IMG/VR virus record: IMGVR_UViG_3300002514_000210
Span: 1,128 to 21,346 of that record
Direction: 5' to 3' (one strand)
DNA length: 20,219 nucleotides
Origin: a virus
Shown: piece by piece, positions 5,607 to 20,198 of the stretch
Position numbering within the stretch: the first letter of the stretch is position 1
How the letters are laid out: the number at the start of each line of letters is the position of its first letter
Made by a program: the position numbers and the translations under genes
The notes under the pieces: generated by a model
What the model saw: only the letters and a program-made list of their open reading frames with translations
Told to the model about the DNA's origin: nothing
Databases searched by the model: none

Positions 5607-6452
5607 ATGAGAAATAATGAAGAACGCTTTGGGGCTGTTGCCCAAGTTGATTCTGCGCCTTCTCTTATTGAAACAACAAGAGACAATTCGAATGCTTTAA
5701 ATTTTGTAGCCCCAACAGATTTTGTGGAGCTTCCATCTAAAGGTCAATTTTACCCTGAAGACCATCCTTTGCACAATAAAGAACATCTTGAAATAAGACA
5801 AATGACAGCAAAAGACGAAGACATTTTAACATCTAGATCTTTATTAAAAAAGGGCGTTGCAATTGAGAGGTTACTTGAAAACCTCATTGTTGATAAAACA
5901 ATAAACATTGCCGAGCTTCTTGTAGGCGATAAAAATGCAATAATGATAAGAGCAAGAATATCCGCTTATGGGGATCTATATGAAACTAAAATTCAATGTC
6001 CTTATTGTACTAGTCTTAATAGCCACGAATTTAACTTGGAAGATATTAAACCAAAAGAATTTAAAAAAAGTTTAGCCACTTCAACTAAAAATGGTGCTTT
6101 TACAATTGAACTGCCGACATCCAAAGTCAAAGTCGAAGTTCGATTTTTAACTGGCGAAGACGAAGCTAGACTTTTGGCCGTTTCTGAAAAGAAAAAACAA
6201 CATAATCTATTAGACAATTCAGTCACTGATCAAATGAAATCTTTCATTGTTTCTGTTAATAACGTTACAGACCGTGGAGAAGTATATTCTTTCGTAGATA
6301 ATATGTTAGCTAAAGATTCACGATACCTTAGAAATACATATATAGACTTAGTGCCAAACATTGAGTTGACTCAAAATTTTAAATGCCAAAGTTGTTCCAC
6401 AGAAATGGACATGGAGGTGCCGTTTACGACGGACTTTTTTTGGCCTAAGTGA
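5607..6452 (+). CDS. gp26: gp26-like baseplate hub protein with two CxxC pairs
   Basis: This 281-residue protein belongs to the T4 gp26-type baseplate family (the 'T4_baseplate' family of T4-like phages). The hallmark block is ELPSKGQFYPEDHPLHNK (residues 41-58), followed by the helix MTAKDEDILTSRSLLKKGVA and the helix ENLIVDK. LLVGDKNAIMIRARISAYGDLY follows, and the protein ends with the conserved VPFTTDFFWPK. Two cysteine pairs, C131/C134 (CPYC) and C260/C263 (CQSC), could form a zinc ribbon; T4 gp26 is shorter (208 aa), so this may be an extra feature. An excellent GAGGTGAT site fixes the start. A small gp51-like ORF follows 7 bases later, matching hub-assembly gene order in T4-like phages. 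Confidence 0.8.
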   Translation: MRNNEERFGAVAQVDSAPSLIETTRDNSNALNFVAPTDFVELPSKGQFYPEDHPLHNKEHLEIRQMTAKDEDILTSRSLLKKGVAIERLLENLIVDKTINIAELLVGDKNAIMIRARISAYGDLYETKIQCPYCTSLNSHEFNLEDIKPKEFKKSLATSTKNGAFTIELPTSKVKVEVRFLTGEDEARLLAVSEKKKQHNLLDNSVTDQMKSFIVSVNNVTDRGEVYSFVDNMLAKDSRYLRNTYIDLVPNIELTQNFKCQSCSTEMDMEVPFTTDFFWPK

Positions 6453-16101: not shown

Positions 16102-16129
16102 TTGACTTTTCTGTAAAATATGTTATATT
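16102..16129 (+). promoter_or_regulatory. Sigma70-like promoter for the replication block (leaderless start)
   Basis: The -35 box TTGACT (16102-16107) and the -10 box TATATT (16124-16129) are separated by 16 bases, and an extended -10 (TGTTATATT, 16121-16129) supports it. CTGTAAAA at 16111-16118 lies in the spacer. The same element at the same offset occurs in the promoter of the ssDNA-binding protein. The predicted transcription start, about 7 bases after the -10, falls at or next to the ATG at 16137, so the mRNA would be leaderless. It marks the border between late and replication genes. Confidence 0.65.
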
Positions 16130-16136
16130 GTAAATA

Positions 16137-17327
16137 ATGCTTTTTCAAACATTTGATGACAAAGAGAACTGCAAAGCTGTGTACACAAAAAATAAATTAT
16201 ATTTTAATAAACCTCCCAAAGGTTTAAGCAAGACATGGTCATATTCAGAATTTTTAAGAGATAAAGATAATATTGCCTATGCACAAATTTTTTGTGGAGG
16301 AAAAACATTAGATGAAGTATGTCCGCCGCACCTTCAAAGCGAATGGGAGAAAGTTAAAAATAGACTGATTGCTTTTCAAAAAACATGCCAAGAGGTACAA
16401 TTAGATTTGAGCGAGCACTGTTTTTATGATATGCTACCCAGGTTCTTTCTAGAGGACCTAGCTCAAATTAAAAACAAAATATGTAATTTTGTTTTTTCAA
16501 ATTATGAAAAGCCTAAGAATTATGATTTTATGCTACAACTTGTTAAAGTGCTAACAGAAGTTAAAAATACAAAACTTAATCTTGATTATTCTATGTTAAA
16601 CAACCGGCTACATGAATTTAAAGTTAGAAATTTTGTAGCAAACGCTAAAAATAATTTACAATATATTAATTATAATTCTTTTAAAACAAAAACAGGAAGG
16701 CTAGCTACCAATTCGGGCTCATTCCCTATTTTAACCATGGATAAGAACTATAGAAAGATTTTGAAGCCAAATAATGACTGGTTTATAGAGTTTGATTTTA
16801 ATGCTGCTGAGTTACGAGTACTATTGAGCCTTCTAGAGAAAGAACAACCACAAGAGGACATGCATAAATGGAATGCAAAAAATATATATCGAGGATCAAC
16901 TACACGCGAAGAAGCCAAAAAAAGAATCTTTGCATGGCTTTACAACCCAGAATCAAAAGACTATCTTTCAAATGGAGCTTATGAGCGAGATTCTGTAGTT
17001 AAAAAGCACTACAATGGGAACCAAGTGACAACATTTTTTGGTAGGACAATTGAAGCTGATGAGCACCATGCATTAAATTATATAATACAATCAACTGCTG
17101 CGGATTTGTTTTTTAAGCAGATGATTAAAATTTGGGAGATGCTTGAGGGAAGAGAATCTAGAATAGCTTTTTGCATGCATGATTCACTTATTATAGATTA
17201 TTCTGAAAAAGATAGTGATATTTTGATAAAATTAAAAAAGACGTTTTCAGATACTAGTTTAGGCAATTTTATGGTTAATGTGCTCGTAGGCAAAGATTAT
17301 GGGGAAATGAAAAAGTTAAGTACTTAA
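16137..17327 (+). CDS. Compact family A DNA polymerase (no exonuclease domain seen)
   Basis: This 396-residue protein carries the polymerase core of DNA polymerase I (family A). In order I see TKTGRL (residues 184-189) and motif A FDFNAAELR, with D220 and E225 (= Klenow D705 and E710). An EDMH follows. Motif B is REEAKKRIFAWLY, with R257, K261, F265 and Y269 at exactly the spacing of Klenow R754, K758, F762 and Y766. QSTAADLF (Q318) and motif C MHDS (H348, D349; usually HDE) follow. Both metal-binding aspartates are present, so it should be active. I see no 3'-5' exonuclease motif; the first ~180 residues are unassigned (thumb?). Motif A-B and B-C distances are 37 and 88 residues, shorter than in Klenow (49 and 124). 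There is no Shine-Dalgarno, and an in-frame TAA at 16131 excludes an earlier start. Confidence 0.9.
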   Translation: MLFQTFDDKENCKAVYTKNKLYFNKPPKGLSKTWSYSEFLRDKDNIAYAQIFCGGKTLDEVCPPHLQSEWEKVKNRLIAFQKTCQEVQLDLSEHCFYDMLPRFFLEDLAQIKNKICNFVFSNYEKPKNYDFMLQLVKVLTEVKNTKLNLDYSMLNNRLHEFKVRNFVANAKNNLQYINYNSFKTKTGRLATNSGSFPILTMDKNYRKILKPNNDWFIEFDFNAAELRVLLSLLEKEQPQEDMHKWNAKNIYRGSTTREEAKKRIFAWLYNPESKDYLSNGAYERDSVVKKHYNGNQVTTFFGRTIEADEHHALNYIIQSTAADLFFKQMIKIWEMLEGRESRIAFCMHDSLIIDYSEKDSDILIKLKKTFSDTSLGNFMVNVLVGKDYGEMKKLST

Positions 17328-17328
17328 A

Positions 17329-18177
17329 ATGAATATAATTGGTTTAGGACAAGCAGGCTGTAGTATTGCTGAATATTTTAAAGAGTACTCGCAATATAAA
17401 GTTTTTAAGATAGATGTCGGGCTTAAGAAGTCCATTGATTCTTATACGCTAAAATATCAAAATAGTCCAGAAGATTATGAGAACAATTTTCCAAATTTGA
17501 AGTCAACATTTTTGAAAGAGGTAAAGGGTCAGACCTTGTTTATAACAAGTTGTGGTCTCATTTCAGGCGCCTCTTTGCGCCTCCTAGAACAAATAAAGGA
17601 CAATTGCAAAGTAAGCGCTCTTTATATTAAACCAGATCTTAATGATTTATCAAAAGAAAAAGCTCTTCAAGAAAATTTAATTTTTAATGTCCTCCAAGAA
17701 TATGCTCGTTCTGGTTTACTTGAAAGGGCTTACATTGTTGATAATGTAAAAGTATCTGAAATAGTTGGAGAAACTCCAGTGCGAGAATACTTTAATCAAA
17801 TAAACAAAATGATTTGTTCTACTATTCATATGATAAACGTTTTCGAAAACTCAAAAGCGGTAATAAGTACTTTATTTGAACCCACATTTACAGCCCGAAT
17901 ATCAACTTTTGGTCTAATGGATTACGAAACAGAAGAAGAAAATATGTTTTTTTCTCTTGACATCCCAAGAGAAAAGAGGTATTATTATGCCATTCCAGAA
18001 AAAGTTTTAAATTCAGATGGAACACTTATTAAAAAAATTAAAAAACAAGTTAAAAATGGTATTGAGCATGATAAAATGAGGAATGGTTATGCGGTATATT
18101 CTACAGACTATGAAACCCCATATGTGTATTGTGTATCAAATAGCACTCTTATTCAAAAAAATGAAAATAATGCTTGA
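17329..18177 (+). CDS. Putative tubulin/FtsZ-like protein, divergent
   Basis: This 282-residue protein begins one base after the polymerase stop, with no clear ribosome-binding site, so it is probably translationally coupled. Its pattern follows the FtsZ/tubulin GTPase domain. MNIIGLGQAGCSIAEYF (T1-loop-like GxGxxGxS) is followed by KVFKIDVG. At LFITSCGLISGASLRLLEQI (residues 70-89) the tubulin T4 loop GGGTGSG would lie but is degenerate. Then come ALYIKPDL (like FtsZ 'TKPF'), a helix LIFNVLQEYARSGLL, AYIVDNVKVSEIVG (like 'IVIPN..LL.I') and a long helix NQINKMICSTIHMINVF. ARISTFGLMDYE starts a C-terminal part. Such proteins polymerise and can position phage DNA (PhuZ, TubZ). GTP binding is doubtful because the GGGTGSG signature is missing. 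A non-polymerising Rossmann protein is the alternative. Confidence 0.88.
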   Translation: MNIIGLGQAGCSIAEYFKEYSQYKVFKIDVGLKKSIDSYTLKYQNSPEDYENNFPNLKSTFLKEVKGQTLFITSCGLISGASLRLLEQIKDNCKVSALYIKPDLNDLSKEKALQENLIFNVLQEYARSGLLERAYIVDNVKVSEIVGETPVREYFNQINKMICSTIHMINVFENSKAVISTLFEPTFTARISTFGLMDYETEEENMFFSLDIPREKRYYYAIPEKVLNSDGTLIKKIKKQVKNGIEHDKMRNGYAVYSTDYETPYVYCVSNSTLIQKNENNA

Positions 18178-18202
18178 CATACCTGTAAAAATGAAGTATT
18201 AT
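18171..18202 (+). promoter_or_regulatory. Strong sigma70-like promoter for the SSB gene
   Basis: A consensus -35 box TTGACA (18174-18179) and a -10 box TATTAT (18197-18202) are separated by exactly 17 bases. CTGTAAAA (18183-18190) lies in the spacer at the same distance from TTGAC as in the polymerase promoter. The -35 overlaps the last codons and TGA stop of the tubulin-like gene. The bases AATGCTTGACA also resemble a T4 middle-promoter MotA box (TGCTTTA-like); this is one alternative reading, and the good -35 favours host RNA polymerase. Confidence 0.75.
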
Positions 18203-18210
18203 AAAGACAG

Positions 18211-18234
18211 CAACATGAGAGAGTTATCATGTTG
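18211..18234 (+). promoter_or_regulatory. 5'-end stem-loop of the SSB mRNA
   Basis: A perfect 8-bp stem (CAACATGA 18211-18218 with TCATGTTG 18227-18234) encloses the loop GAGAGTTA. It can extend to AGC/GCT over one bulged G. The predicted start site is about 18209, so the stem lies at the very 5' end of the mRNA, where hairpins protect transcripts from decay. It leaves the AAGGAG site (18245-18250) free. I find no clear pseudoknot partner for the loop, so a T4 gene 32-type autoregulatory pseudoknot is not shown. Confidence 0.55.
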
Positions 18235-18263
18235 GCTTTAAAACAAGGAGAAAATATTTAATT

Positions 18264-19022
18264 ATGGAAATTGATATGAAAAGGATGCGTGACCGATTAA
18301 ACACGCTCAAAAATAAAAATGGAGCCAGCGGTTTTTGGCGCCCTCAAGATGGAGAACAAACCATTCGGATTGTTCCAACAGCAGATGGAGACCCTTTTAA
18401 GGATTACTGGTTTCACTACAATGTAGGAGATAACCCTGGCTTTTTGAGCCCTAAAAGAAATTTTGGAGATGATTGTCCTTTGGACTCTTTTGTTCGAAAC
18501 CTTTGGCAGGAAGGCACCGAAGACAGCAAGCGAATGGCTAAAAAGTTGTCAGCCCGACAACGATTTTTCGCCCCAGTGCTTGTACGAGGAGAAGAAGACC
18601 AAGGCGTACGCGTTTGGGGATTTGGAAAACAAGTATATGAAACGCTTTTGAATCTGGTATTAAACCCAGAATATGGCGACGTTACCGATCCTGAAACTGG
18701 CACTGATTTGACAATCACATATGGAAAGCCTGCTGGAGCTTCGTTTCCAGTAACAAATATCACTCCCCGGCGACGAAGTTCCCCGCTTTGTCCAGATGAC
18801 CCTGAAAAGTGTCGCGAACTTTTGGAAGGTATTCCAGATTTTGAAGAACTTTTTGCTGGAAGTCGCAAGACATTCGAAGAAGTTCAAGCGATGCTGGATG
18901 AATTTCTTCTAGGAGACAGCAATCCAGAAGAAGTGTCGTCAGAAACTACCAAGTATAGTGACAATAAAAGCAAGGATACGGGAAATACCGTTGATAAAGC
19001 TTTTGCTGATCTGCTAGGATAG
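18264..19022 (+). CDS. gp32: gp32-like single-stranded DNA-binding protein
   Basis: This 252-residue protein probably coats single-stranded DNA during replication and recombination. The N-terminus MKRMRDRLNTLKNKNG resembles the basic cooperativity arm. The core has FWRPQDGEQTIRIVPTADGD, DYWFHYNVG, SPKRNFGDDCP, AKKLSARQRFFAPVLVRGEE and VRVWGFGKQVYETLLNLVLN. GDVTDPETGTDLTITYGKP, an SFPVTNITPRRRS strand and a Glu/Asp-rich linker ending VDKAFADLLG complete it. This is the gp32 (T4 SSB) arrangement; T4 gp32 is 301 aa. The ATG at 18264 follows AAGGAG (18245-18250) at a longish 13-base spacing; ATG 18276 is the alternative. Of the T4 zinc ligands, only H51 and C71 seem kept. It is a one-gene unit between its promoter and a terminator. 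Confidence 0.88.
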   Translation: MEIDMKRMRDRLNTLKNKNGASGFWRPQDGEQTIRIVPTADGDPFKDYWFHYNVGDNPGFLSPKRNFGDDCPLDSFVRNLWQEGTEDSKRMAKKLSARQRFFAPVLVRGEEDQGVRVWGFGKQVYETLLNLVLNPEYGDVTDPETGTDLTITYGKPAGASFPVTNITPRRRSSPLCPDDPEKCRELLEGIPDFEELFAGSRKTFEEVQAMLDEFLLGDSNPEEVSSETTKYSDNKSKDTGNTVDKAFADLLG

Positions 19023-19035
19023 TTTATTTTGTTTT

Positions 19036-19071
19036 AAGCGGGAGAGAGATTAATCTCTCTCCCGCTTTTTT
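19036..19071 (+). terminator. Rho-independent terminator after the SSB gene
   Basis: A perfect palindrome with 16-base arms lies at 19036-19051 and 19052-19067, with GCGGGAGAGAGA on the left arm and TCTCTCTCCCGC on the right. Allowing a TTAA loop, the stem is about 14 bp and strongly G-C paired at its base. It is followed by six T's (19066-19071). It ends 17 bases before the uvsX ATG, so it should insulate or attenuate transcription into uvsX. Confidence 0.93.
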
Positions 19072-19088
19072 AATCGAAAAGGAACACA

Positions 19089-20198
19089 ATGGCAAAGACT
19101 AAAACAAAAAGAACCGGCAAAATTTCAATTGCTGATATGCGGAGCATCATCAATAAAAAAGCTGGCATGAATGTGGCACACAATCTTAAAGAAGACAGCC
19201 CAACTCTCGTCAAAGAGTGGATCCCAACTGGATCTCGCTGGCTTGATTCAATTGTTTGTCGGGGTAAGCTCGCAGGTATTCCTGTTGGAAAAATTGTAGA
19301 AATCGCTGGGCTAGAATCTACTGGTAAATCATATATGGCTGCTCAAGTTGCAGCAAACGCGCAGAAAATGGGCCTTGATGTAATTTACTTTGATTCTGAA
19401 TCAGCAATTGATCCAACTTTTCTTGAAAAAGCTGGATGCGATGTCGACAGTGTGCTTTATGTACAGGCTGCATCTGTTGAATTCGTGCTAGAAACGATTG
19501 AAGAACTATTAGGCACAAACGAGAATCGCATGCTCTTTATTTGGGACTCTCTAGCGTTAACACCAGCAGTTTCAGATATTGAAGGGGACTTTAATCCTCT
19601 TTCTTCAATGGCGGTTAAGGCGAGAATCCTTGCAAAGGGAATGTCAAAACTTACAGTTCCAATTGCAAACAGTCAATCAACATTCTTGGTATTAAACCAG
19701 CTTAAAACAAACATCACTAGGAGCCCCTCAGAGGCCCTTACAACGCCCTATATGACTCCTGGCGGTAAAGCTATGATTTATGCTTATTCGTTGCGTGTGT
19801 GGCTCACAGGACGCAAAGCAAAAGCTTCTTTTGTTTTAGATGACAAAGGGTTCAGGATCGGTTCAGAGGTGAAGGTTAAACTTGAAAAATCTCGCTTTGG
19901 GACACAAGGTCGACAATGCAATTTCAAGATTCTGTGGGGAGATGAAGTTGGTGTACAAGATGAAGAAAGCTGGCTTGATGCAATTAAAGGATCGAGTTCT
20001 TTAAAACAATCTGGAGCATGGTACGAACTTTGTTATGAAGATGGTACTTGTGAAAAGTTTCAAGGCTCTGGATGGACGGGCAAACTTCAAAGTGAAAAGT
20101 TTAAAACTCGTGTATTAGAAATCATGGATGAAGAAATTATTAGAAAGTTTGATGATCGAACAGGAGAAGCTAAAGATTTCTATGACGAAGAAGAATAA
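19089..20198 (+). CDS. uvsX: UvsX/RecA-type recombinase
   Basis: This 369-residue protein is the phage strand-exchange recombinase, probably acting with the adjacent SSB. Visible motifs are Walker A GLESTGKS (residues 74-81), YFDSESAID with E104 aligned to the catalytic E96 of RecA, and Walker B MLFIWDS (D153). VLNQLKTNITRS (N203, Q204) corresponds to the RecA L2 entry, and TPGGKAMIYAYSLRVWL to the following strand. The length lies between RecA (353 aa) and T4 UvsX (391 aa), and the sequence has an acidic C-terminal tail (ending FYDEEE) as in RecA and UvsX. AAAAGGA (19077-19083) is the ribosome-binding site. I see no promoter in the 17 bases after the terminator, so transcription is probably read-through. 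Confidence 0.93.
   Translation: MAKTKTKRTGKISIADMRSIINKKAGMNVAHNLKEDSPTLVKEWIPTGSRWLDSIVCRGKLAGIPVGKIVEIAGLESTGKSYMAAQVAANAQKMGLDVIYFDSESAIDPTFLEKAGCDVDSVLYVQAASVEFVLETIEELLGTNENRMLFIWDSLALTPAVSDIEGDFNPLSSMAVKARILAKGMSKLTVPIANSQSTFLVLNQLKTNITRSPSEALTTPYMTPGGKAMIYAYSLRVWLTGRKAKASFVLDDKGFRIGSEVKVKLEKSRFGTQGRQCNFKILWGDEVGVQDEESWLDAIKGSSSLKQSGAWYELCYEDGTCEKFQGSGWTGKLQSEKFKTRVLEIMDEEIIRKFDDRTGEAKDFYDEEE

Follow-up and report, generated by a model that had tools for sequence, protein, structure and literature searches.

The window, that is the whole stretch of 20,219 nucleotides analysed here, is part of a 26-kb virus fragment in IMG/VR. It carries a gene, called tub below, whose product is a divergent member of the tubulin/FtsZ superfamily, as judged from predicted fold and profile comparison. 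The gene is a single-copy core gene of marine Far-T4-like phages. The best known phage tubulins are PhuZ of the phiKZ-like, nucleus-forming jumbo phages, and the TubZ partition system of plasmids and a phage. Tub is neither of these, nor is it FtsZ, since the features that define the three are absent or could not be established. It would represent another phage tubulin lineage, invisible to sequence searches, which a large group of uncultured phages of the ocean carries in its core gene set, inside the replication module. The features discussed are collected in Table 1.

Table 1. Features of the tub locus (positions in the window).
Feature	Coordinates	Strand	Evidence
Candidate promoter TTGACT-16-TATATT upstream of polA-tub	16102..16129	+	Promoter-like sequence
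polA, DNA polymerase family A, polymerase domain only, 396 aa; same operon as tub	16137..17327	+	PF00476, E 1.5e-17; phrog_17
tub, divergent minimal tubulin/FtsZ-fold protein (predicted), 282 aa	17329..18177	+	ORF; AF2 model; PDB fold search; FtsZ profile alignment
T1 loop and start of H1 (IGLGQAGCSI); G5, L6, G7 and G10 invariant	17338..17367	+	Conservation; aligned to FtsZ T1
T2 acidic residue D29, kept in 106/108 rows	17413..17415	+	Conservation
T4-loop position (TSCGLISGAS); family pattern G-x-[IV]-S in place of GGGTGSG	17545..17574	+	Conservation; motif count
T6 Asn N139, invariant; equivalent of the guanine-contacting Asn of FtsZ/tubulin	17743..17745	+	Conservation; collinear in hhalign
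Core helix H7, residues 151-173; N159 invariant, aromatic at 155	17779..17847	+	DSSP of model; conservation
T7/H8 position; no predicted helix, no catalytic acidic motif	17848..17898	+	DSSP in two models; motif count
Candidate promoter TTGACA-17-TATTAT, near-consensus, overlapping the last tub codons and reading into gp32	18174..18202	+	Promoter-like sequence
Covarying RNA hairpin in the gp32 leader; 8-bp stem 18211-18218/18227-18234, 8-nt loop	18211..18234	+	Covariation
gp32-like single-strand DNA-binding protein	18264..19022	+	PF08804, E 1.5e-14; phrog_1192
UvsX/RecA-like recombinase	19089..20198	+	PF00154, E 4.8e-35; phrog_97

Fold and superfamily membership

The initial annotation, made from the sequence alone, described a tubulin/FtsZ-like protein in an open reading frame of 282 residues, and this frame with its quoted motifs is present at that place and on that strand. 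It is a real gene and not a chance reading frame, because relatives are found in hundreds of viral contigs, the gene order is constant, and dN/dS is about 0.08-0.12 (five closely related tub pairs); the gene is under purifying selection.

An AlphaFold2 model of Tub, built on an alignment of 40 members, has a pLDDT of 94.2 and a pTM of 0.91. When the PDB was searched with this model using Foldseek, the top 50 matches were all FtsZ, TubZ or tubulin, aligned over nearly the full length with E-values down to 2e-12 and TMq up to 0.74. A second model, led by the protein of locus L068, which is 42% identical to the Tub protein P0001, reached a pLDDT of 92, and its top 50 PDB matches were FtsZ structures only (E down to 2e-13). 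The FtsZ matches of both models are 9-18% identical in sequence. The models display the two-domain fold of the superfamily, with a Rossmann-like GTP-binding domain, the core helix H7 and a second domain.

Profile-profile alignment with hhalign gave a probability of 90.0% for the tub family against a profile of eight FtsZ sequences, and 94.5% (P 7.5e-8) when eight PhuZ sequences were added to the eight FtsZ; the two alignments cover 155-157 columns. T1, T4, T6 and H7 all fall in register, and the alignment ends at H7. Against these profiles four control families (UvsX, SSB, polA and an upstream structural family) scored 0.1-3.2%. Against single FtsZ or PhuZ sequences the tub profile gave 0.1-80%, and the link to FtsZ is therefore carried by the profile and by no one sequence. 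That Tub has the fold of the tubulin/FtsZ superfamily is, in our judgement, nearly certain, and the model, the fold search and the profile alignment all bear out the original assignment; homology to FtsZ in sequence, beyond the fold, is suggested with moderate confidence.

The motif GLGQAGCSIA could also be read as a dinucleotide-binding loop, which would make Tub a plain NAD-type Rossmann protein. Of 40 members searched singly in Pfam, 10 do match TrkA_N weakly (best E 2e-4) and 3 match PF00091 (best E 0.0015), but TrkA aligns over only 28 columns with a probability of 2.2%, against 155 columns and 90% for the FtsZ profile, and the full-length fold matches in the top 50 for both models were FtsZ, TubZ and tubulin only. 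This reading was rejected as very improbable. The initial annotation had named a plain NAD-binding Rossmann or other unrelated fold, and a profile search empty of tubulin-family matches, as findings that would speak against it; the predicted fold is that of tubulin/FtsZ, and the FtsZ profile did align.

Searches with sequences gave a different picture from those with models. A single Tub sequence found no tubulin match in Pfam, PHROGs or the PDB sequences, the 40-member profile gave only chance matches to PDB sequences, and PF00091 scored above its gathering threshold in none of ten long contigs in a genome search. Annotation will leave tub "hypothetical", because there is no usable match in Pfam, PHROGs, GTDB genomes or cultured phages.

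Distribution and genomic context

Relatives of tub were gathered from IMG/VR in rounds, which yielded 5, then 139, and then at least 565 stretches. None were found in GTDB genome contigs, and none by tblastn of three members against cultured phages. T4-like tail genes occupy the left part of the window, where the sheath, tube and baseplate-hub proteins match Rhodothermus phage RM378, the only cultured Far-T4 phage, with E-values of 1e-34, 2e-17 and 3e-10. No homologue of Tub was found above chance in RM378 with the full profile (best E 0.17); a match at E 0.0045 obtained with a smaller profile was not upheld. Far-T4 phages are predicted to infect Bacteroidetes/Flavobacteriales (PMC7198788, PMC13037479). 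The words FtsZ and tubulin are absent from two papers on the Far-T4 group (PMC4360716, PMC13037479), and a search limited to one open library gave no paper joining "FtsZ" and "Far-T4".

The neighbours of tub are highly constant. A gp32/SSB gene lies downstream on the same strand in all of the 100 distinct tub genes with enough sequence, at a median distance of about 55 nt; five other tub genes reach the end of the contig, four within 135 nt and one within 424 nt. Loci were also fetched by their UvsX, a choice independent of tub, and all 57 that could be assessed carry tub in the order polA - tub - gp32/SSB - UvsX. This sample consisted of 74 loci whose UvsX is at least about 75% identical to that of the window; the 17 remaining contigs start close to the SSB gene. 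Each of 11 records, of which ten are long, has one copy of tub. Since the order is fixed, tub belongs to the replication module and not to polA alone.

The initial annotation had stressed a coupling of tub to the family A polymerase. In the window the polA stop codon TAA (17325-17327) and the tub ATG at 17329 are indeed one base apart, and among relatives the median gap is 8 nt, with several 4-nt overlaps and 59 of 89 gaps at or below 50 nt, but in some genomes the distance is up to 2.5 kb. Thus polA does lie upstream, but the partner of tub is the replication module of polA, gp32/SSB and UvsX, and gp32 is the constant neighbour, on the downstream side.

A few observations concern the surrounding genes. 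The window polA encodes only a polymerase domain. In RM378 one gene is annotated DNA polymerase and another "similar to DNA polymerase I", a split which hints that the exonuclease domain may likewise have its own gene here. Between 10837 and 16100 the window contains two long ORFs of 1094 and 659 aa with no Pfam match. The 659-aa ORF has no match in PHROGs either, and a relative of it is found directly upstream of polA in most relatives that reach that far. T4 gp59, encoded upstream of gene 32 in some T4-like phages, was sought and gave no match; the control was silent too. In locus L064 a short ORF (1951-2337) lies between tub and gp32. Its first 30 residues match the second domain of Tub and the rest is unrelated, so that it looks like the scar of a duplication or insertion.

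Nucleotide pocket, lost catalytic face and possible role

Conservation was assessed in an alignment of 108 rows, made up of 107 distinct members and the window copy. Eleven positions are invariant, namely G5, L6, G7, G10, L83, P102, Q123, R127, S128, N139 and N159, and the conserved positions fall in the T1 loop, the T2 acid, the end of S5, helix H5, the T6 Asn and the H7 Asn. The pair of asparagines expected to contact guanine, N139 in T6 and N159 in H7, is present in all 108 rows, and residue 155, four positions before N159, is aromatic in most of them. In this superfamily the T1-T4 loops contact the phosphates, T5 the ribose and T6 the guanine (see PMC8936486). GTP or GDP binding by Tub therefore appears likely, because most of the nucleotide pocket is conserved, and GTP binding may also be weak or lost, because T4, a phosphate-contacting loop, is degenerate in every member. 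The T4 signature [SAG]-G-G-T-G-[SAT]-G, which is found in 8 of 8 FtsZ sequences, occurs in 0 of the 107 distinct members and in 0 of 8 PhuZ.

The replacement of GGGTGSG had been pointed out from the start and holds throughout the family, but the more telling loss is that of T7 and helix H8, the catalytic, lower filament face. In FtsZ two catalytic aspartates of T7 act from the opposite face on the GTP of the neighbouring subunit (PMC8936486). The T7 motif N.D..[DE], present in 6 of 8 FtsZ, is found in 0 of the 108 rows. No helix is predicted at residues 174-190 of the first model or at the same place in the second, so in the models H8 is missing between H7 and S7, and the H9 position is a short strand and a turn in both; these two assignments are our own reading of the DSSP strings of the models. 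The pocket face of Tub is conserved and the catalytic lower face is not, which offers a clean natural test of a tubulin fold devoid of GTP hydrolysis.

The most likely role of Tub is to scaffold or place the replication machinery, as suggested by its strict genomic bond with polA, gp32 and UvsX. According to this model Tub would be made from the replication operon, in the window apparently by translational coupling to polA, and would bind a guanine nucleotide in its largely conserved pocket (T1, the T2 Asp, the T6 Asn and the H7 Asn). It would not display self-stimulated hydrolysis, since the catalytic aspartates of T7 and helix H8, which complete the GTPase site of the neighbouring subunit, are missing. 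The nucleotide-bound protein would then form a static (non-treadmilling) assembly or scaffold, and in this way keep the phage replication complex of polA, gp32 and UvsX in place, or bring it to its place, within the cell. PMC8936486 mentions the structure of an FtsZ filament with GTP in which the T7 loop is truncated and non-catalytic, which makes a static assembly of this kind possible. Tub would be PhuZ-like in purpose and not in dynamics, and would extend the cytoskeleton-like organisation of DNA replication to T4-like phages. Nucleotide binding, assembly and contact with the replisome are all steps that we infer, and the minimal tubulin/FtsZ identity and the static scaffold taken jointly are given a tentative confidence that falls somewhat short of even. 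The loss of the lower face, judged for H8 from predicted models and from a profile alignment that ends at H7, could prevent filaments altogether, and gene order alone is no proof of a role in replication, as phage modules also carry genes for host takeover.

Host takeover is what the main rival explanation invokes. Tub would then be an FtsZ mimic that caps or poisons the filaments of the host: its nucleotide-filled upper face docks on the T7 face of host FtsZ, while its own lower face, having no T7 or H8, refuses the next subunit, so that the filament stops and host division is blocked. The asymmetry between a kept pocket face and a lost T7/H8 face is what is expected of a one-sided cap, and Flavobacteriales, which account for 113 of 235 iPHoP predictions for Far-T4 relatives (PMC13037479), divide with FtsZ. 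However, tub is strictly linked to polA, gp32 and UvsX and not to host-takeover genes, and its likeness to FtsZ in the fold matches is very low, while a mimic of one partner might have kept more. Phage-encoded FtsZ inhibitors do occur in other phages, and a capping role for Tub is still considered unlikely. The broader claim that Tub, in a widespread group of marine phages, is either a constitutive and catalytically silent tubulin-fold part of the phage replication machine or such a one-sided cap, its upper face binding nucleotide and its catalytic lower face lost, is held with some reserve, and a little more cautiously than the joint claim above; no tubulin homologue with either role was found in the sources searched.

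The small size and the lost lower interface would also suit a non-polymerising nucleotide switch or sensor, a monomer that reports the level of guanine nucleotide or recruits polA or gp32 independently of filaments. Invariant or near-invariant motifs located off the pocket (Q123, R127 and S128 on H5, HMINVF on H7) could be partner sites for such a protein. Against this, a role of that kind is undocumented for the tubulin superfamily in the sources consulted, and we regard it as improbable, slightly more so than the cap.

It is useful to compare Tub with the known systems. The likeness to FtsZ, the cell-division GTPase of bacteria and archaea (PF00091), takes in the predicted fold along almost the entire protein, the T1 loop, the T2 Asp, the T6 Asn, helix H7 with its Asn and, in our own reading of the DSSP string, the order S8-H10-S9-S10 of the second domain. 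Unlike FtsZ, Tub has no GGGTG signature, no N-x-D-x-x-[DE] T7 motif and, in the models, no H8; it ends at 282 aa with no C-terminal tail, and is not linked to division genes. With PhuZ it shares membership of the tubulin superfamily, a phage genome and the absence of the exact T4 signature, and in phiKZ the phuZ gene is some 8 kb away from one that is annotated as DNA polymerase. PhuZ differs in that T7 and H8 are lost in Tub, that tub is coupled to polA, gp32 and UvsX, and that tub belongs to a T4-like lineage with records of up to 186 kb. Kinship with PhuZ alone (phiKZ gp39) was weak in hhalign, with a probability of 30.8% over 95 columns. The TubZ structures 4ei7, 2xkb and 2xka are among the top PDB fold matches, but Tub has neither the T7 motif nor the C-terminal extension. 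The best viral fold match is A0A6J5RW92 in BFVD, annotated "FtsZ Cell division GTPase" from an uncultured Caudovirales phage (TMq 0.79, E 4e-12), which differs in having 452 aa and only 15% identity.

A further possibility is a dynamic tubulin like PhuZ or TubZ: Tub would hydrolyse GTP by means of residues that stand in for the classical T7 aspartates, and its dynamic filaments would move or centre the DNA of the phage. The fold, the viral origin and the position beside DNA replication genes are as expected of a DNA-positioning system, and PhuZ itself manages with no exact GGGTG[S/T]G signature, but the T7 motif is absent, as are H8 and the tail in the models, and no TubR-like gene was identified beside tub. 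A TubRZC-type partition cassette was looked for and rejected, with no tubR-like gene or repeat array next to tub; the coding strand between polA, tub and gp32 contains no ORF of 60 aa or more, and between 15900 and 20219 there is no tubC-like repeat array, only dispersed two-copy AT-rich repeats. The dynamic role is accordingly judged quite unlikely, more so than either the cap or the switch.

The gp32 leader

The short region between tub and gp32 contains a conserved RNA hairpin. In an alignment of 46 sequences 98.1% of the cells in the stem pair, and there are 148 double changes against 45 in shuffles, while slid versions of the stem pair to at most 57%. The 8-nt loop is conserved, with GAGAGUUA, GAUAUUUG and GAGAUUUG types, and 3' of the hairpin there is a UUUAA-containing stretch followed by the Shine-Dalgarno sequence. 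The covariance model R1 matches the window at 18205-18266 (+) with 62.7 bits. In each of 11 records it found a single strong copy, and across 49 loci the strong matches are in the gp32 leader; a search of the window against Rfam gave no match. In T4 it is by way of a leader pseudoknot and UUAAA/UAAA repeats that gp32 represses its own mRNA (PMC535899). By analogy, the hairpin is probably the autogenous translational operator of gp32 in Far-T4 phages, a simple hairpin where T4 has a pseudoknot.

Promoter-like sites scoring at least 10/12 were found in the tub-gp32 gap of 45 of 130 relatives, as compared with 2 of 130 shuffled gaps, which suggests that in some genomes, but not in all, gp32 is probably transcribed from a promoter of its own. 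If the candidate at 18174-18202 is real, the hairpin would form the extreme 5' end of the gp32 mRNA.

In locus L203 a second, weaker hairpin copy (6376-6439, 31 bits) is found about 700 nt upstream of the one in the gp32 leader, after a small ORF that follows tub. Between gp32 and UvsX in the window (19036-19067) there is a perfect 16-nt inverted repeat followed by a T-run, resembling an intrinsic terminator.
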